The translations under genes and the position numbers were made by a program. A model generated the notes under the pieces. It did no database searches and had not been told where the DNA came from. It saw only the letters and a program-made list of their open reading frames with translations. Shown piece by piece: positions 6,007 through 62,253 of a stretch of DNA of 64,000 bases (its first letter is position 1; the number at the start of each line of letters is the position of its first letter). This DNA is from an uncultured Gemmatimonadales bacterium (GTDB lineage: Bacteria; Gemmatimonadota; Gemmatimonadetes; Longimicrobiales; Gaopeijiaceae), in contig CALFPJ010000057.1 of assembly GCA_937919655.1 (NCBI GenBank), positions 62,001-126,000 on the forward strand, read 5' to 3'.

Positions 6007-6015
6007 GTGTCCCGC

Positions 6016-6687
6016 ATGGTCCGCGCCCGTTTCGCACCTCTCTCCACATACCGCGAGCTCTCTCCCGAGGAGATGCTGCAAGCGGCGGACGATTTCCTCT
6101 CGGTCATGAGGCGCCGTCGTACCGTTCGTGATTTTTCCGACCGGCCCGTGCCGAAGGACGTTTTGGAAAGGTGCCTTCTGGCGGCGGGTACCGCCCCCAA
6201 CGGCGCGAATCGTCAGCCGTGGCGTTTCGTCGTCGTGGGCGATCCGGAGATCAAGGCGCAGATCCGGGCGGGGGCGGAGGAGGAGGAGGCGGAGTTCTAT
6301 AGCGGCAAAGCGCCGCCAGAGTGGATCGAGGCCCTTGAACATCTGGGCACCGACGAGCACAAGCCGTTCCTTGAGCGAGCGCCTTGGCTCATCGTGATCT
6401 TTGCCGAGAGCTACGAAGTGATGCCTGATGGGGGAAAGGCGAAGAACTACTACGTGTCGGAGTCGGTTGGCATCGCCACAGGTATGCTGATCACCGCCCT
6501 GCATCACGCGGGATTAGTCACGCTCACGCATACGCCGTCGCCCATGAAGTTCCTGAATACCGTGCTGCATCGGCCCGAGAATGAACGACCCTTCCTCATC
6601 CTCGTATGTGGTTATCCAGAGGAGGGTGCGACGGTCCCGGATATTTCGAAGAAGTCGATCGACGAGATCGCGGTTTTCGTCGAGTAG
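6016..6687 (+). CDS. nitroreductase-family flavoprotein (iodotyrosine deiodinase-like subgroup)
   Basis: A 223-residue FMN-dependent oxidoreductase. [15 protein letters not shown] near residue 32 is the FMN-phosphate-binding start of nitroreductases, [19 protein letters not shown] is the second FMN contact, and the C-terminal [11 protein letters not shown] and [10 protein letters not shown] segments match the deiodinase-like branch. In bacteria such proteins usually reduce nitro, halogenated or quinone-like substrates; the substrate here is unknown. GTG 6007 is an alternative start directly after the preceding stop. I prefer ATG 6016, which has taggtg about 7 bases upstream. Likely in an operon with the flanking genes. 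Confidence 0.85.
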
Positions 6688-6695
6688 CCACTGAC

Positions 6696-8615
6696 ATGGC
6701 CCGAGACATCTCTGGAGCGAGCAGTAGCGGGGAGGCCACGCGGAGGTTTACGCGGGCCTTGCTGCGGGACTTGCAGGCCCTTGAGCGGATGGTTGAGCGA
6801 AACATGTTTGAGGCAGGCGTCCGACGGATGGGCATCGAACAGGAGATGTTCTTCGTCAACCGGGGCTGGCATCCTGCACCGGTCGCCCTTGAAGTCCTCG
6901 CTCAACTGGATGGGCCGTTCACGACTGAACTGGCGCTCTTTAACTTCGAGGCCAACGTAGAACCCTTGGTGCTCGAAGGACCGTGTTTCACCGCGCTTGA
7001 GCGCCGAATTGACGAACTACTCGCTGAGGTGCGGCGCGCGGCGCTCACCGTGGGCGCGGAGGTGATACTCACCGGCATTCTCCCGACCCTGACGAAGTCG
7101 GATATGTCCTTGGACAACATCACCCCGCGGGCCCGGTACTATGCGCTCAACCACGCCCTCTCCCACAGCGATGGTGGGGAGCCGAGGCGGCTCCGAATCG
7201 AGGGCGCGGACGAACTGTTCATCCAGCATGACTCGGTGATGCTGGAGGCTTGTAACACGAGCTGTCAGGTGCACCTTCAGGTCGAGCCGAGCGAGTTCGC
7301 CAAGATGTACAACGCGGCCCAATTGGTCGCTGGCCCGGTGCTGGCGGCGGCGGTGAACTCTCCCGTCCTGTTCGGCAAACAACTCTGGAGTGAGACACGG
7401 ATCGCCCTCTTCCAACAGGCCGTCGATACCCGCAAGGGTATGGTGCACCTTCGTGACCTATCTCCCCGTGTCCGGTTCGGTGACCGTTGGGTGGAGGAGT
7501 CCGTCACAGAGCTGTTCGAAGAGGACATTGCCCATTTTCGAGTACTCCTAACGCGGGACGTGGAGGAAGATCCGATTCAGGTCCTACGAGACGGTGGGAT
7601 CCCTCAACTGCACGCGCTTCAGATGAACAATAGTACGGTCTACCGATGGAACAGGCCTTGTTACGGCGCCGGGAACGGAAAGCCGCATCTCCGCATTGAA
7701 TGCCGGTTCATTCCGGCGGGCCCCTCTGTGGCCGATGAGGTCGCCAACGCGGCTTTCTGGATCGGGCTGGTTCTCGGTGTGGCGGGCAGGTACGGGAACG
7801 TGGCGCGGAGCATTGACTTCGAGGAGGTGAAGACGAACTTCTTGGCCGCCGCCCACAGTGGTCTCAAGGCCGGATTCCGGTGGATCGACGGCGAGACCTA
7901 CAGTGCGAAAGATTTGATTTTGAGAGAGCTGCTCCCGCTGGCGCGGGAAGGGCTGGCTGGGACGGCTGTGGATCCCTCGGACATCGACGAATATCTCTCG
8001 ATCATCCAAGGTCGGACTGAGACTGAGAATACCGGATCGCGTTGGATTCTGCGGTCGCTGTCCGGCATGAAGGATCGAGGTTCTCGAGCAGAGCGGCTTG
8101 CTGCGGTCACGGCAGCCACGGTAGCGCGGCAAAAGACGCGAATTCCTGGACACCTTTGGGAGCCGGCCAGCATTCGCGATGCGGGCGGCTGGAGGCTGAA
8201 TTACGTGCGTGTCGAGCAATTTATGACCACGTCGCTGTTCACCGTTCACGAGGACGAACTGGTGAGCATGGTGGCGTTTCTGATGGATCGAAAACAGATC
8301 CGACATGTTCTCGTTGAGGACGACCTCCACAACCTCGTGGGTATGGTCTCGTACCGTTCCGTCTTGCGGCTGATGGCCGATAGCTTCGACAGTTCAGCCG
8401 ATGCGGCCCCTCCGGTTAGTCTCATCATGGAGAGGGACCCGGTGAAAGTGGGTCCCGAGACCGCGACACTCGAAGCCATCGACCTGATGAGGCACCACAA
8501 GGTCTCCTGCTTGCCAGTGGTTTCGGACGGCAAATTGGTCGGTATTGTAAGTGAACGAGATTTTCTCGTCGTGGCGTACGAACTTTTGCAAGAGAAACTG
8601 GCGAGAGATGCCTGA
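6696..8615 (+). CDS. GCS2-like glutamate-cysteine ligase domain fused to a CBS-domain pair
   Basis: A 639-residue two-part protein. Residues about 30-480 resemble the GCS2/YbdK-type carboxylate-amine ligase fold: GIEQEMFFVNRGW near 48 for the metal-binding Glu pair, NFEANVEP, SCQVHLQV near 220, and LRIECRFIPAGPS near 360. Residues about 508-639 are two CBS motifs (EQFMTTSLFTVHEDELV; LVGIVSERDFL), which normally bind adenosyl nucleotides and regulate enzymes. The ligase may therefore make a gamma-glutamyl thiol or amide under adenylate control; that is inference. ATG 6696 follows the nitroreductase stop by 8 bases. An upstream in-frame start at 6606 would overlap the nitroreductase gene and is less likely. 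Confidence 0.78.
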   Translation: MARDISGASSSGEATRRFTRALLRDLQALERMVERNMFEAGVRRMGIEQEMFFVNRGWHPAPVALEVLAQLDGPFTTELALFNFEANVEPLVLEGPCFTALERRIDELLAEVRRAALTVGAEVILTGILPTLTKSDMSLDNITPRARYYALNHALSHSDGGEPRRLRIEGADELFIQHDSVMLEACNTSCQVHLQVEPSEFAKMYNAAQLVAGPVLAAAVNSPVLFGKQLWSETRIALFQQAVDTRKGMVHLRDLSPRVRFGDRWVEESVTELFEEDIAHFRVLLTRDVEEDPIQVLRDGGIPQLHALQMNNSTVYRWNRPCYGAGNGKPHLRIECRFIPAGPSVADEVANAAFWIGLVLGVAGRYGNVARSIDFEEVKTNFLAAAHSGLKAGFRWIDGETYSAKDLILRELLPLAREGLAGTAVDPSDIDEYLSIIQGRTETENTGSRWILRSLSGMKDRGSRAERLAAVTAATVARQKTRIPGHLWEPASIRDAGGWRLNYVRVEQFMTTSLFTVHEDELVSMVAFLMDRKQIRHVLVEDDLHNLVGMVSYRSVLRLMADSFDSSADAAPPVSLIMERDPVKVGPETATLEAIDLMRHHKVSCLPVVSDGKLVGIVSERDFLVVAYELLQEKLARDA

Positions 8616-8631: not shown

Positions 8632-9828
8632 ATGGAGCTAGAGTCCGGACAGATGCCGTACGACCGCTTCCTAGGTTGAGGCCGCGGCGACCGCCCTGGA
8701 CCGTCGCTGATTTGCGTGGGTGGACTCCACGGGAACGAACCAGCGGGCGTGTACGCACTAGAACGTGTGCTCGCGGCCCTCGAGTCTCGATCCTCCGCAC
8801 TGACAGGTGAGTTTGTGGCCCTGGCTGGGAATCGTGCGGCGTTGGCGAAGAAGTGCCGGTTCGTCGACCGAGATCTCAATCGTGCTTGGACTGACGAGCG
8901 CCTGGCACGACTCCGTGCTGAGGACTCGCTAGGCTTGGAATCGGAGGACCACGAGCAGCTTGAGCTGCTTAGTACGCTAGACCAGGTCGTCACCGACGCC
9001 CGTGGAACGGTTTACGTGTTGGACCTACACACCACTTCAGGACTCGGCGGCACGTTCTCCACCTTCGGAGATTCCCTCCCCAACCGGGGCTTCGCGGAGC
9101 ACATCCCGGTGCCGATGGTGTTCGGACTCGAAGAACTCGTGGAGGGGGCGCTCCTCGCTTTCTTGGGTGAGCACGGACTTGTTGCGATTGCGGTCGAAAG
9201 CGGCCAACACGATGAGGCACTGTCGGTGGATCGCGCCGAGGCCGCGATTTGGATCGCCATCCGAAGCGCCGGGCTCCTCGCCCCCGCTGATGTCCCGGAA
9301 GCGGGTGTCGGCCAGGCGTTCCTGCGGGCTGAGACTGCGGGGCTCCCCCATGCCGTCGAGATGCGATTCCGCTACGACGTCGATCCCGACACGCAGTTCG
9401 CGATGAAGCCCGGGTACAAGAACTTCCTGTCCGTCAAACAAGGAGAGACGATCGCCAGTGATCGACACGGGGACATCGTGGTGAGCGAGGATTCGCGCTT
9501 GTTGATGCCGCTGTACTAACAGCAGGGGGACGATGGCTTCTTCCTCGTACGCGAGTTCAGTCCCTTCTGGCTCCGCGTTTCGTACCTACTCAGACGGGCC
9601 CGCGCGGATCGGTTCGCGCGCTGGCTCCCTGGGGTCCGTCAGGATGCCGGTTCGCCAGACACGTTGTATGTGAATCGGCGGGTGGCGCGCATCTACGCGT
9701 TGCAGCTCTTCCATCTGCTTGGGTTCCGCAGCGTCGAAGACACCGGTGATCATCTCGTGGTCCGTCGGCGTCGATTTGACGAGGCGCGGTTCATTGCCCG
9801 CGGACCTTCGCCAGAAAAGCTCGGATAG
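8632..9828 (+). pseudogene. succinylglutamate desuccinylase/aspartoacylase-family gene interrupted by two in-frame stops
   Basis: One reading frame of 399 codons from ATG 8632 to TAG 9826-9828 encodes a complete zinc carboxypeptidase-like protein, except for TGA at 8677-8679 and TAA at 9517-9519. Before the TGA: PYDRFLG. After it: GRGDRPGPSLICVGGLHGNEPAG with the zinc-binding HGNE, then VLDLHTT (third zinc ligand) and the catalytic region AVESGQHDE. After the TAA the frame continues as QQGDDGFFLVREFSPFW and on to a leucine/arginine-rich C terminus, as I recall for this family. No frameshift occurs. The longest uninterrupted piece is 8716-9519 (GTG start), which lacks the first strand and the C-terminal part. 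It follows the GCS2-CBS gene by 16 bases. Confidence 0.7.
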
Positions 9829-9840
9829 GGTGCCGTCGGA

Positions 9841-10512
9841 ATGTGCGGTCGCTTCACGTTGGCTCAGGACGAACAAACGCTCTTAGAGGCGTTTGATATC
9901 CCAGCGCTGGCGTTCGACCTGGTGCCGCGTTTCAATATCGCTCCAGGACAGTCAGCTATCGTCGTCGCCCAGGACCGGAGCGGACGTAGGGCTGGTATGC
10001 TACGATGTGGGCTCGTCCCGGCGCGGGCCGATGATCTCGGGGCAGGCTTTATCAATGCCAGAGCGGAGACCGTTGCGTCGAAACCCTCCTTCCGGGAGGC
10101 GTTCGCCCGGCGACGGTGTCTGGTCCCGGCCGATGGCTTCTATGAGTGGCGACGGGCCGGCGAGGCGAAAGAAGCTCGCTGGTTCCACCCCGCGCAGGAG
10201 GCCCTTTTTGCGTTTGCTGGAATCTGGGAGTCATGGAGGCGCCCCGGAGCCGAGCCCCGCCACACCTTTGCGATTCTCACGACGGCGGCCAACGATGATG
10301 TGCGTCCCACGCATCACCGGATGCCCCTGCTCGTGATGGCAGCGGACCGAGACGCTTGGTTGGATCGTGATACGGATGCCGTTCGGTTGGCGTCGCTTCT
10401 GGGTGCGGCGCCGGAGAGCCGCATCGTGTCGCACGCCGTATCGATGCGTGTGAACCGAGCAATCGACGACGACGCGGCTCTGATTGTGCCGCTCACGGAG
10501 TTAGCCGACTAA
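9841..10512 (+). CDS. SRAP/YedK-family abasic-site DNA-protein crosslinking protein
   Basis: A 223-residue SOS-response-associated peptidase (HMCES/YedK) homologue. These proteins shield abasic sites in single-stranded DNA by a thiazolidine link to Cys2. The sequence begins MCGRFTL, so Cys2 is exposed after Met removal. Other conserved points are FNIAPGQ near 36, NARAET near 73 (active-site Asn), PADGFYEW near 97 (catalytic Glu) and HHRMPLL near 160 (His). The normally conserved Trp of the RWGLVP motif reads Cys here (RCGLVP), a one-base change. It starts 12 bases after the preceding broken gene. Confidence 0.92.
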   Translation: MCGRFTLAQDEQTLLEAFDIPALAFDLVPRFNIAPGQSAIVVAQDRSGRRAGMLRCGLVPARADDLGAGFINARAETVASKPSFREAFARRRCLVPADGFYEWRRAGEAKEARWFHPAQEALFAFAGIWESWRRPGAEPRHTFAILTTAANDDVRPTHHRMPLLVMAADRDAWLDRDTDAVRLASLLGAAPESRIVSHAVSMRVNRAIDDDAALIVPLTELAD

Positions 10513-10676: not shown

Positions 10677-12338
10677 TTGCCCAAGGACATCGTCATATGC
10701 GCCGACGGCACCGGAAACACGGTGGTGCGTGGACGAGGAACCAACGTCTTCAAGCTATTCGAAGCCGTGGACATTAACGGCCATCGGAAGATCTCGGGGC
10801 GGACACCTCAGGTCGGCTTTTACACGGACGGTGTCGGCACCGAGGGGAATCAGTATGCCCGCTTGTTAGGGAGCTTGTTCGGATTCGGATTGAAGCGAAA
10901 CGTTCTTCACCTGTACCGCGACCTCGCCCACAGTTACGAGCCGGGTGACAAGATTTTCATGTTCGGCTTCAGTCGCGGTGCGTTCACCGTACGCATGTTG
11001 GCGGGGTTGATCGACGTCTGCGGGGTGCTACGCGTCGAAGAAACGGAAGGTGACTCGGCCCTCCTTAAGCGTTATTCGAATCTCGCATATGACGCGTATC
11101 TGGCGATCCAACCGACCACGCTAGAGGGTCGAATCAAGTGGGGACGTAGCACCAAAGCGGCATGGCTGAGGTTCGCAGAGCTACGCGACAAGGTGTCCCA
11201 GCACCCGACTCCCATTGAATTCATAGGGGTTTGGGACACGGTGGGGGCGCTTGGTTTTCCCATCGAGAAAGTCGCCACGTTTTGGAACCGGCACATCCGC
11301 CGCTTCCAGTTTGCGCGCACGGACGTGAAGGAGAACGTCACGTGTGCACGACACGCACTTTCGATCGATGATGCGCGCGCGAGCTTCCATCCGATGCTTT
11401 GGAACAACACGGGGCACGCCGACACCAAACAGGTGTGGTTCGCCGGCGTTCACGCGAATGTGGGTGGAGGGTATCCCAAACAGGGGATGTCCTTGGTGAG
11501 TCTCGATTGGATGATGGCGGAAGCGGAGGCGCGCGGGCTCGTGTTCATCGACTCTCTACGCGATCAGTATCGCGACGCTCAAAACGTCCACGATCACATT
11601 TATGACTCTCGGGCCGGGCTCAGGACCTACTACCGCTTCAAGTTCAGGGATCTCGACAAAATTTGTAAACAAGCGGACGTGCCCCTTCGCATTCACGAGA
11701 GTGTGGGCGAACGCATCTTCATGGGGACCGAGCTTTATGCTCCTGGCAACGTTCCCAGCGACTTCGAGATCGAGCCCTATCGACCGGGTGACCTGGTCGG
11801 ATGGTGGGTTGCCAGGCTTCAGCATATCACACACAAGACGGGTGATGGGGAGGACCTCCTAGATGACGTCTCGGTGTGGCGATTCCTGAAGAAGGGATGT
11901 TACTGGGGGATGTTGGTCGCCACGATGCTGATCGCCGTCGAGCTTGGCGCGGACGCATGGGCCGCATCCGCAGGGCCTGCACGTACGGGTTTGGATCAGC
12001 TCCTTCTTGCGGTTCAGGACACGACGGGAACGCTCTCCATGTTTGAGCGAGGGAACAGGGAGGCGTCCGAGTTGACCGGTCAGGGCCTCGCCTATTCGCT
12101 CAGTGCGCCGGGTATCGCCGGCGTCGTCTATCGAGTGGTCGAGGCCGCTCTTTTACTCGTCGGCGTAGCAATGACGTTCTACCTGATCTCGATTCTGGCC
12201 CGGGAGCGCATCTACGGGCACTTCCGCGAGAAGTGGTTCCAACGTGTGTTGGCCGCGAGGAATCTCAGGCTGCCGCCGGACTACCCGCGCTCTGCGGAAG
12301 CGCTTGCCGCACGGGCCGCGCGGGACCCGGCACCCTAG
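10677..12338 (+). CDS. DUF2235 alpha/beta-hydrolase-like protein with C-terminal membrane segments
   Basis: A 553-residue protein starting at TTG 10677 behind aaggaag. The N terminus has the DUF2235 signature (VICADGTGN, then YTDGVGTEG) and the nucleophile elbow GFSRGAFTVR near residue 103, with GVWDTVGALG near 185 and a His in GVHANVGGGYP near 262. These match the Tle1-like phospholipase fold found in T6SS effectors and in stand-alone membrane proteins. Two hydrophobic segments near 410-430 and 485-510 suggest a membrane-anchored C terminus. No T6SS genes are nearby, so a housekeeping or lipid-related role is more likely than an effector; the substrate is unknown. Confidence 0.82.
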   Translation: MPKDIVICADGTGNTVVRGRGTNVFKLFEAVDINGHRKISGRTPQVGFYTDGVGTEGNQYARLLGSLFGFGLKRNVLHLYRDLAHSYEPGDKIFMFGFSRGAFTVRMLAGLIDVCGVLRVEETEGDSALLKRYSNLAYDAYLAIQPTTLEGRIKWGRSTKAAWLRFAELRDKVSQHPTPIEFIGVWDTVGALGFPIEKVATFWNRHIRRFQFARTDVKENVTCARHALSIDDARASFHPMLWNNTGHADTKQVWFAGVHANVGGGYPKQGMSLVSLDWMMAEAEARGLVFIDSLRDQYRDAQNVHDHIYDSRAGLRTYYRFKFRDLDKICKQADVPLRIHESVGERIFMGTELYAPGNVPSDFEIEPYRPGDLVGWWVARLQHITHKTGDGEDLLDDVSVWRFLKKGCYWGMLVATMLIAVELGADAWAASAGPARTGLDQLLLAVQDTTGTLSMFERGNREASELTGQGLAYSLSAPGIAGVVYRVVEAALLLVGVAMTFYLISILARERIYGHFREKWFQRVLAARNLRLPPDYPRSAEALAARAARDPAP

Positions 12339-26626: not shown

Positions 26627-27601
26627 TTAAGAAGTTCGCTTGCTCTTCGAGACCTCTGCCACATGTAGGAGACCCGCGCCGGGGTAGACCAGCGGGTTGA
26701 CTGCGTGGCCTAAGACCACTCCGGCCACGGGACTACGTACGGTCGTGTACTTCGCGTCTGCCGGGTCCGCGATCACACCGACTCGCTGACCCTTCGTCAA
26801 CAGCGCACCGAGTTGGATCTCAAGGCGGAAGATTCCGCCTCGGGGGGCCCGAACCCATGTCGTCGAGCGGGCCTCGAGAGGCGGCGTCTCGCGGGGAGGC
26901 GGCGGGTCCGAGATCATCCCCAGTGCACCGAGGACGCGCAGCGCACCGGCGGTGCCCGCCTCGACCGCCGCCGTACTGAATCGGCGGGGCTCCCCACCCT
27001 CGAAGAGCAGGATCGTCTTGCTGCGTCGCAGAGCGGTCTCCCGGAGCGTGCCCTTGATCGTCGCCGAGTGAAGCATCACGTCCGGACCGAACGCCAGCGC
27101 GAGTCGGCGGGTCTCGTCGTCGTCCATGTTTCCGCGGATTTGCGGCAAGTTCGTGCGGTCGTCTGAGCCGGCGTGGAAATCGATCCCGTAATCACAACGG
27201 TCCACAACGGTGTCGACGAAGAGTCGGGCGAGCCGGGCCGCCAAAGAGCCCCTCGAAGAGCCAGGGAATGAGCGGTTGAGGTCGCGACGATCAGGGAGGT
27301 AGCGGGATCCGGTCACGAACCCGAACACATTGACGACCGGGACGGCGAGTACGGTCCCTGCCATCTTCTTCGGCTTCAGGGCCTCGAGGACGTGGCGGAT
27401 GACGGCGACACCCACGATTTCGTCACCGTGAATCGCCCCGCTCAGCCAGATGACTGGGCCCGGTTTGGCCCCGTGCGCGATCTTGATCGGCAGCGTCATT
27501 TGGGTGCCTGAGGGGAGTCGTCCCGCGTGGATCTCAAACTCGCGAAGGCTGCCTGGGGCGATCTCTTCTCCCCCGAAAAAGTAGGGTTCGGTAGTCATCA
27601 T
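26627..27601 (-). CDS. succinylglutamate desuccinylase/aspartoacylase-family zinc hydrolase
   Basis: A 324-residue protein. LSGAIHGDEIVG near residue 53 has the HxxE zinc ligands, YLPDRRDLNRSFPG near 105 the substrate-binding Arg/Asn residues, and IDFHAGSDDRTNLPQ near 140 the third zinc ligand. ILLFEGGEP near 193 supplies the catalytic Glu. The C-terminal part (RAPRGGIFRLEIQLG to HAVNPLVYPG) is the beta domain found in AstE-like proteins. Unlike its relative at 8632-9828, this copy is intact. The substrate is unknown. It converges on the receiver gene with only 7 bases between. Confidence 0.87.
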   Translation of the reverse strand: MMTTEPYFFGGEEIAPGSLREFEIHAGRLPSGTQMTLPIKIAHGAKPGPVIWLSGAIHGDEIVGVAVIRHVLEALKPKKMAGTVLAVPVVNVFGFVTGSRYLPDRRDLNRSFPGSSRGSLAARLARLFVDTVVDRCDYGIDFHAGSDDRTNLPQIRGNMDDDETRRLALAFGPDVMLHSATIKGTLRETALRRSKTILLFEGGEPRRFSTAAVEAGTAGALRVLGALGMISDPPPPRETPPLEARSTTWVRAPRGGIFRLEIQLGALLTKGQRVGVIADPADAKYTTVRSPVAGVVLGHAVNPLVYPGAGLLHVAEVSKSKRTS

Positions 27602-36579: not shown

Positions 36580-36829
36580 CTTGTCCAATAGCCTCGCCAG
36601 CGTCTGCTCAAAGGCGTTTATTTCACAGCGTTGTACCGGTAGGCGATGACCGGTGAGGCCGGTTGTTTCGATCCCAACATCATGGGCAACACCTTCCGGC
36701 GCAGGAGCTAATCCGGGCGGCTCGCCGGGGGTGAAACACCCCTCTAATTTGAATCCCCAAGTGATTGAAGCGGGGCCCTCTGCCGTAAGGCGGGGGGCCT
36801 CGAATCATCAATATTTGGGAGGATTCGGA

Positions 36830-38911
36830 ATGGCAGCGGCCAAGGAGTACACCACCGACTACATCCGCAACGTCGCGGTTCTCGGGCACGGTGGGTCCGG
36901 TAAAACGAGCCTTGTCGACGCGCTCTGTTTCGTTTCGGGCACCTCCAATCGGCACGGAGATGTGGGAGATGGGACTGCCCTCACGATGCACACCCCAGAA
37001 GAACACACCCACGAGATTTCAATCCAGATGACGCCGGCGTATGCCGAGCACCGTGACACGAAGATCAACCTCCTCGACACGCCGGGATTCCTGGACTTCA
37101 TGGGTGAGACCCTGGCGGCGGTACGGGTGGCGGACGCAGCCATCATTGTGGTGAGCGCCACCGCGGGGGTCGAGGTGGGCACCGAGCGTGTTTGGGAGTA
37201 CTGCGAGGCCCGAGGGATTCCTCGAATATTTTTTGTCTCCATGATGGACAAGGATCTCGCCGACTTCGACCGTGTGTTCAAGCAAATCAAGGAGCTCTCG
37301 GCGAGCGCGATGCCTGTGGAGATCCCGATAGGCGAAGGCGCTGACTTTTCCGGGATCATCAACCTCTTCAGTGAACGAGCGCATATGTTCACGAAGGGCA
37401 CGACGACTGGGGAGTACACGGAGGGCGACATTCCCGATTCGCTCAAGGACAAGGAGGCGCAGTGGGAGACCGAGTTGCAGGAGGCTCTCGCCACCACCAA
37501 TGAGTCGTTGCTCGAGACGTATCTAGAGGGCGGGCACATCTCCCGGGAGGAGGCGATCGATGCCATGGCGCTCAGCATGTCTCGGGGTGAGGTCGTTCCC
37601 GTCTTCTGCGGCTCCGGCACCCTCACATACGGAGTTCGTGCGCTGCTGAGGAAGCTGGTCGAGCTATGTCCCAGTCCCGCCGAAGCGCGTCGTGAATTTG
37701 TTGGCGATACCCAGTTGGTCGCTGACGATGATGGGCCCTTGGCAGCACTGGTATTCAAGACCGCCGCAGAACCACACGTCGGGGAGCTTTCCTTCTTCCG
37801 TATCTTCTCGGGTTCGGTGGCGAGCGGAGTGGAGGTCGTCAACGCGTCTGACGGTCAAGCCGAGAAGCTCAATCACTTGAGCATTCCGATGGGCAAGGAA
37901 CGGCATGAGGTGACCCGGCTCCACGCGGGTGATATCGGCGTGGTGGCGAAGCTGAAGCACACGCACACGAACGACAGTCTGAACCAAAAGGGCCGCAATC
38001 TGGCGCTAGAGAAGATCCAGTTTCCGGCGGCTGACATTTCGGTCGCCATCAAGGGTGTGACCCGCGCCGACGAGGACAAACTCGGTGAGGTGATTCCGAA
38101 GCTGCATGAGGAGGACCCGACCTTTTCAGCGGCGTTCAACGCTGAACTCCACCAGACCATCGCGCGAGGCACGGGGGAGATGCATCTGGAGATTCAGTTT
38201 GAGCGTATGGCAAGAAAGTACGGTGTGAAGGTAGAGACCGAGCAGCCCCGCATTGCCTACCGTGAGACCCTTTCCAGGACCGCCGAAGGGCAGGGGCGGC
38301 ACAAGAAGCAGTCGGGTGGCCGAGGTCAGTTCGGTGACTGCTGGATTCGTTTGTCACCCAAGCCGACTGGAGCCGGCTACGAGTTTGTGGATTCCATCAA
38401 GGGAGGCGCCATCCCAGGCAAGTACCTCCCGTCGGTGGACCGGGGCATTCAGGAGGCTGCGGAGCGGGGCGTGATTGCGGGGTTCCCTCTCGTCGACTTT
38501 GCGGCGGAATGTTACGACGGGTCCTACCATGCGGTCGACTCGTCTGATATCGCGTTTAAGATGGCGGGCGCAGCCGCGTTCAGGTCCGTCTCGGAGAAGT
38601 GCGGACCGCAGCTTTTGGAACCGATCATGGCGGTTGCGGTGACCACGCCGGACTAATACGTGGGGGACATCATGGGTGACCTGACGTCTCGGCGCGGAAA
38701 GGTGCAAGGGATGGATCCATTAGGTGGGCGCACCACGATTCATGCGATGGTGCCTGAGGCCGAGCTTTATCGTTATGCGGCCACGCTGAGGTCGATCACT
38801 CAGGGACGTGGGCACCACGAGCGTAAGGTGGCAGGATACGAGCCGGCGCCGCCCGACGTTGCGAAAAAGGTCGCTAAAGAGCGGGCCGCGGCAGCCGCTG
38901 AGGCGCACTAG
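36830..38911 (+). pseudogene. elongation factor G paralogue (EF-G2-like) interrupted by one in-frame TAA
   Basis: A 694-codon frame from ATG 36830 (site ggagga) encodes a full EF-G-like GTPase: P-loop GHGGSGKTSL, LLDTPGFLDF (G3), VSMMDKD in the G4 position where EF-G has NKxD, then domains II-IV. At 38654-38656 a TAA sits between TPD and YVGDIMGDL, a segment highly conserved in EF-G where Glu is usual. The frame resumes unchanged to TAG 38911 and encodes most of domain V. Without readthrough, the product would end after 608 residues. The G1 sequence GHGG and the divergent switch region suggest an EF-G2-type paralogue, not the main translocase. Confidence 0.8.
38672..38911 (+). CDS. EF-G domain V fragment, possibly made by re-initiation
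   Basis: After the internal TAA, an ATG at 38672 follows gtgggggac by 3 bases, and GTG 38660 is also in frame. Either could begin a peptide of 79-83 residues (GRTTIHAMVPEAELYRYAATL region) covering EF-G domain V. Whether a free domain V complements the first part is unknown. This entry is the second piece of the interrupted gene, not an independent gene. Confidence 0.45.
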   Translation: MGDLTSRRGKVQGMDPLGGRTTIHAMVPEAELYRYAATLRSITQGRGHHERKVAGYEPAPPDVAKKVAKERAAAAAEAH

Positions 38912-61245: not shown

Positions 61246-62253
61246 ATGACCGTGCTGGTCACCGGTGGTGGTGGTTTCGTAGGCACGGAAGTGTGCCGGC
61301 AGCTGACAGCTAGCGGCGTAGGCGTCCGGAGCTTCGCCCGCTCCCACTATCCAGTGTTGGACGCCATGGGCGTCGAGCAGGTGCAGGCAGACCTCGCCGA
61401 CCCCACAGCTGTCAGAGCAGCGGCCGCGGGGTGTGAGGCTGTCTTCCACGTGGCAGCGCGCGCAGAGATGGCCGGCCCAGCCGACCTGTTCCATCGTGTG
61501 AACGTGGTGGGCACGCGCAACGTCATTGCCGCGTGCCGGGCGCAGGGCATCAGCAAGTTGATCCACACCAGCACGCCGTCGGTCGTGCACGACGGCGGTC
61601 ATGCCAGTGGGCTCGACGAGAGCGCCCCCTACGCCACCAAGTTTCTCGCCCACTACCCGCGAACCAAGGCGATCGCTGAGCAGGAAGTCCTCGCCGCCAA
61701 CGATGCGACTCTGGCCACCGTGGCCCTGAGGCCACACCTGGTCTGGGGACCCGGCGACCCTCACTTCCTGCCGCAACTGGTTGCTCGCTCCCGGTCCGGC
61801 GAGTTGCGGCTTGTGGGCGACGGTAGCTCGTGGGTCGACTCAGTCTTCATAGAAGACGCTGCCCGCGCGCATGTGTTGGCTTTTGAGCGACTTGCCGTCG
61901 GCGCACCCTGTGCGGGCCGAGCGTACTTCATCACGCAGGGTGAGCCGCTGCCGATGCGCGAGCTTATCAACGCACTTTTGGCTGCGTGCGGAGAGCCGCC
62001 GGTCGAGCGCAGCGTGCCTCCTGCAGTGGCCTGGTTCGCGGGGGCCGTCTTTGAGACGCTGCACGCCGTTCTGCGGAAAGAGGGTGTGCCACGCATGACG
62101 CGGTTTGTGGCCCGGCAGCTATCGACCGCGCACTACTTCGACATCTCGGCGGCGCGGCGGGACCTGGGGTATGCGCCCGCCTACAGCATGGAGCAGGCGT
62201 TGGCGAAGCTGCGGGCGTTTTGGGATGCGGAGCGCGCGCAGGGGAACCGGTGA
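61246..62253 (+). CDS. oleD: OleD, NADPH-dependent 2-alkyl-3-oxoalkanoate reductase
   Basis: A 335-residue extended SDR. VLVTGGGGFVGTEV is the NAD(P) motif, YPRTKAIAEQEVL near residue 143 gives Tyr-x3-Lys, and ALRPHLVWGPGD near 165 is typical of the 3-beta-HSD branch. OleD reduces the oxo acid made by OleA to the 3-hydroxy acid used by OleC. It closes a complete oleABCD cluster; ggaggaat precedes ATG 61246. Confidence 0.9.
   Translation: MTVLVTGGGGFVGTEVCRQLTASGVGVRSFARSHYPVLDAMGVEQVQADLADPTAVRAAAAGCEAVFHVAARAEMAGPADLFHRVNVVGTRNVIAACRAQGISKLIHTSTPSVVHDGGHASGLDESAPYATKFLAHYPRTKAIAEQEVLAANDATLATVALRPHLVWGPGDPHFLPQLVARSRSGELRLVGDGSSWVDSVFIEDAARAHVLAFERLAVGAPCAGRAYFITQGEPLPMRELINALLAACGEPPVERSVPPAVAWFAGAVFETLHAVLRKEGVPRMTRFVARQLSTAHYFDISAARRDLGYAPAYSMEQALAKLRAFWDAERAQGNR

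Follow-up and report, generated by a model that had tools for sequence, protein, structure and literature searches.

The locus examined here raises the question of whether a gene with two in-frame stop codons has been lost, has been misread in the assembly, or is still translated in some form. It lies on the plus strand of the window, by which we mean the whole 64,000-nucleotide stretch analyzed (positions 62,001 to 126,000 of contig CALFPJ010000057.1) from an uncultured Gemmatimonadales bacterium. The interrupted frame and its parts are as follows.

8632 to 9828, plus strand: interrupted gene of the AstE/AspA superfamily (AspA), presumed pseudogene, 399 codons.
8677 to 8679, plus strand: first in-frame stop, TGA, codon 16, at a site that varies among relatives; the aligned residue of the modelled orthologue belongs to its first beta strand.
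9517 to 9519, plus strand: second in-frame stop, TAA, codon 296.
8716 to 9519, plus strand: longest remaining open reading frame, GTG start, 267 amino acids; it keeps H33xxE36, H133, and E189 and lacks strands 1 and 2 and everything past codon 295.
9520 to 9825, plus strand: remnant 3' of the second stop, 102 codons, covering the final strand of the core as well as the C-terminal subdomain; 72% identical to the relative G008.

Translation of the plus strand from 8632 to 9828 placed stops only at codon 16, at codon 296, and at the terminal TAG (9826). Codons 11 to 385 matched the nearest relative, G008, at 66% identity (E value of 3e-162; 65 to 66% overall) and in the same frame across both stops. 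Matches in the same frame across both stops were also obtained for codons 9 to 397 in a second genome (G048) and for codons 10 to 397 in a third (G043), and no frameshift was needed to align codons ~10 to ~397 with intact relatives. The first-pass annotation had described a continuous 399-codon frame that reads like its family before, between, and after TGA 8677 and TAA 9517, and the unbroken alignment to intact relatives agrees with this description. The peptides flanking the stops (PYDRFLG-stop-GRGD and LMPLY-stop-QQGDDGFF) were also as it gave them. Judged from these alignments, the similarity of the frame through both stops is far beyond chance. A start at ATG 8632 leaves only 15 codons before the TGA, and the TAA falls in the most conserved tail motif of the family, LMPLYQxxGxDGFF.

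The piece from 8716 to 9519 passed the curated cut-off of PF24827 (56 versus 25 bits). Scored with the interrupted piece only, it missed the NCBIfam cut-off for aspartoacylase proper (NF002601; 49.8 versus 180 bits), and the AstE cut-off was missed as well (32.7 versus 305.65 bits). We therefore class the gene as a member of the AstE/AspA superfamily only and assign it to neither enzyme; in this sense, the PF24827 match bears out the earlier designation as aspartoacylase family. H33, E36, H133, and E189 are present in the window, all in strongly conserved columns, and we take H33/E36 (HxxE) and H133 to be the zinc ligands and E189 to be the catalytic glutamate, as in the established family. 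The intact orthologue from G008 was modelled with AlphaFold2 (AF2; pLDDT of 90; pTM of 0.91), and the model had the AstE/AspA fold (Foldseek E value of 3e-15 to 1yw6; TMt of 0.63). Its best PDB matches were 1yw6 (succinylglutamate desuccinylase), 3cdx, and 6twm (DoeB), and it carries a C-terminal subdomain beyond that fold. Most likely, the gene encoded a zinc-dependent amidohydrolase of the AstE/AspA fold.

Codons of the window were placed on this model with an alignment offset of nine (window versus G008). The TGA maps to the strand at residues 22 to 27. GTG 8716, the only common in-frame restart, falls after two strands (E22-27 and E30-39), and the TAA maps before core strand E310-317. According to the model, both truncations would remove core strands, and neither would resemble a natural form.

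We then surveyed the family of genomes to which this one belongs. The gene was present in 66 of 121 genomes (its own and 65 others), and none of the 65 other carriers had an internal stop in the catalytic part that was searched. A single match was found in its own genome, with no other functional copy. In an alignment of 61 homologues, the residue aligned with codon 16 was R in 16 and otherwise W, S, D, H, K, or others, with Cys in none; codon 296 could be scored in 60, of which 58 had Q. Except for three rows with an unresolved start, relatives begin 6 to 24 residues before codon 16. A complete relative ending at 9517 would have made the second stop a natural terminus. We looked for one in this alignment and found none: the shortest complete relative goes 14 residues further and most go ~85 to 110 further, so this stop stands as a lesion and a natural short form ending there was rejected. 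Defining strongly conserved columns as those at least 90% conserved (n = 45), the window matches 44, as good as intact relatives, and its sole mismatch is the TAA.

The first-pass annotation had also proposed that an intact relative within the window could cover for the loss of AspA.

26627 to 27601, minus strand: intact, DoeB-like paralogue of the AstE/AspA superfamily; neither an orthologue nor an evident backup.

This gene belongs to a different subfamily, closer to DoeB, and shares 34% identity with the interrupted gene over 74 residues only. Moreover, a good homologue of it occurs in 10 other genomes, and 8 of these also have an intact AspA gene. Since this distant paralogue is usually found together with intact AspA, we rejected it as a stand-in.

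The genes around AspA form a cluster, and its two members that flank AspA in the window are intact.

6007 to 6687, plus strand: nitroreductase/BluB-like gene, part of the conserved gene order.
6606 to 8615, plus strand: intact upstream partner, in which a GCS2-like ligase domain is combined with two CBS domains; its true start is probably near 6693.
9841 to 10512, plus strand: intact gene for SRAP (SOS response associated peptidase), the downstream partner.

Gene order in the family is conserved from nitroreductase through GCS2-CBS to AspA, and SRAP comes next in many genomes; from these comparisons, the order GCS2-CBS, AspA, SRAP appears to be old. In two genomes of two other genera (G004 and G007), GCS2-CBS adjoins SRAP and AspA is cleanly absent. 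Trees of GCS2 and of SRAP place these two as sisters nested among AspA-bearing genomes, so that AspA was lost here and not gained late elsewhere. The only other genome of the same genus (G001) is without GCS2-CBS, AspA, and SRAP, and AspA is absent from the 11 listed genomes of genus g12. The loss of AspA elsewhere with its neighbours kept indicates that it is dispensable. A reverse loss was observed in G043 (L063), where nitroreductase, AspA, and SRAP are kept and GCS2-CBS is missing from between them. Just downstream of the cluster in the window (10677 to 12338, plus strand) lies a gene whose product has a catalytic domain of the Tle1-like phospholipase type (PF09994).

The age of the lesions was judged from the rest of the gene. 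The terminal branch of AspA measured 0.419, compared to 0.413 in its sister G008, and shows no acceleration; the same comparison for GCS2 gave 0.231 and 0.238. Third-position G+C was 0.72, like that of the neighbours. As far as the gene trees can tell, relaxed selection leaves no branch signal, the decay being too young to see. Furthermore, the identity that the codons past 296 still share with G008 suggests that this region was under selection until recently. We employed a simple neutral mutation model with an assumed spectrum and indel rates of 0.05 to 0.2 per substitution. Under this model, two nonsense mutations predict ~38 missense changes, ~4 of them at conserved columns, and 2 to 10 frameshifts, and the probability of seeing neither a conserved-column change nor a frameshift was ~0.02 to 0.05. 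The scarcity of other damage points to very young lesions, to an error at one stop or at both, or, least probably of all, to a gene that is still translated. The low probability leaves room for youth or for luck, because such genes were singled out for examination by their unbroken frame.

The tRNA set comprised 44 genes found with Rfam and one tRNA-Sec, with anticodons assigned by ARAGORN. Among these 45 genes, there was no suppressor tRNA for TAA or TAG (anticodon TTA or CTA), and suppression was rejected on this ground. The tRNA-Sec (UCA) lies at L146:211-304, and to judge by its genes this genome seems to use selenocysteine, so that TGA would not always be a stop here. Selenocysteine at TGA 8677 was rejected because the aligned residue is never Cys. 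Reassignment of the code was rejected as well, because TGA and TAA both end ordinary nearby genes. Two likely selenoprotein genes were observed elsewhere in the genome, each with TGA at the active-site Cys: one AhpC/TSA-like (L074:16504, plus strand; motif HW-TGA-PWC) and one OsmC-like (L088:5023, minus strand). Both families are among the selenoproteins of an ocean survey (PMC2398784).

A scan of 0.5 Mb of this genome for in-frame stops revealed at least five other genes that carry them, some also frameshifted.

Window 36653 to 38910, plus strand: EF-G paralogue; TAA at 38654 just before domain V, with EFG_IV before and EFG_C after in the same frame.
Contig C57, L055:1804-3216, minus strand: SNF-family sodium symporter; one in-frame TGA at C57:42655, both halves matching PF00209.
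Contig C57:58419-58864 (L091): LolD/MacB-type ABC ATPase; clearly a pseudogene, with both a TAA and a frameshift.
Contig C21, L088:2206-2635, plus strand: Ser/Thr kinase gene; TAG, TAA, and a later frameshift.
Contig C15:84041 (L076 near 4041), minus strand: GT2 glycosyltransferase; TAG in place of the PLYNE-motif tyrosine.

Relatives of the EF-G paralogue run through its TAA site, and the genome has an intact main EF-G at another location. Conversely, no stops were found in six RND pumps (~6,000 codons) or in about 42 of about 44 ABC ATPase domains. The clustering of lesions in few genes, frameshifts included, favors true decay, and the genes with a single stop (EF-G paralogue, SNF symporter, and GT2) are compatible with occasional errors as well. 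The literature on nonsense pseudogenes in such genomes offered nothing useful.

Together, these results suggest that AspA is most probably a very young (unitary) pseudogene. Decay, sequencing error, and readthrough had been left side by side in the earlier reading; recent decay accounts best for stops that are absent from relatives in a gene that is otherwise family-like. An artefact, in which either stop or both would stem from substitution errors or from the consensus of mixed strains and the living cell would have an intact gene, is unlikely, with a small share of the probability. The assembly is a draft of 114 contigs (94.8% complete and 2.1% contaminated), the remainder of AspA is without decay, and the three single-stop genes are otherwise intact. 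However, a gene hit twice by nonsense errors is improbable where the RND pumps and nearly all ABC domains are free of stops, and the other broken genes hold multiple lesions with frameshifts, resembling real decay. Deamination of the ancient-DNA type was rejected as the sole cause, since stops at tyrosine positions reveal lesions other than C-to-T changes.

The lack of frameshifts and the retention of all conserved sites could also be explained if both stops were read through or recoded and the full-length enzyme were made, in a genome that has tRNA-Sec and at least two likely selenoproteins. Nevertheless, neither stop occurs in any relative, the residues aligned with the TGA never include Cys, the TAA is unreadable by tRNA-Sec and has no matching suppressor, and neighbouring ordinary genes terminate with the same codons. 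Readthrough thus fared poorly and is extremely improbable, and we give the same slight weight to leaky, low-level termination in this lineage, by which nonsense-only genes (AspA, the EF-G paralogue, the symporter, and GT2) would stay selected and accumulate. Hardly more probable is a shortened functional protein of 267 amino acids from GTG 8716 to TAA 9517. Its reading frame is open and all of the zinc and catalytic residues are kept, but natural homologues are longer at both ends, the model indicates that strands E22-27 and E30-39 and core strand E310-317 would be missing, and the sequence past codon 296 was selected until recently.

According to the pseudogene reading, AspA would be the former middle gene of the old GCS2-CBS, AspA, SRAP cluster. 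Translation from ATG 8632 would be halted by the TGA after its 15 codons. An internally started product would lack the first core strands, and the TAA at codon 296 would cut off the C-terminal subdomain together with the last strand of the core. The stops would then be real in the organism and a functional product would not be made, a loss presumably tolerated because the step performed by AspA is dispensable in this lineage. Most likely, this is ordinary gene loss, caught early, in one of several broken genes of the genome. For annotation, the locus should be taken neither as two short proteins nor as a functional aspartoacylase. Alongside the relatives from which AspA is cleanly deleted, it presents one gene in three states at the same locus: intact, freshly broken, and gone. 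Moreover, with several nonsense-bearing genes, the soundness of the draft is worth checking before its gene content is cited.

The interrupted gene shares with the AstE/AspA superfamily (PF24827; succinylglutamate desuccinylase, aspartoacylase, and DoeB) the HxxE...H zinc motif and the late Glu, and its modelled orthologue in G008 shares the fold. Unlike relatives of the Bacteroidota type, it has a C-terminal subdomain of ~85 residues. It resembles UGA-recoded selenoprotein genes in that TGA is one of its stops and a tRNA-Sec is present in the genome, and it differs from them in the aligned residue, which is never Cys, and in the second stop, TAA. Its two nonsense lesions are accompanied by unusually little further damage for a unitary bacterial pseudogene. 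In other respects, it is like such pseudogenes made by nonsense mutation: a single-copy gene with in-frame stops, intact orthologues, and intact neighbours, and one that other lineages have deleted.
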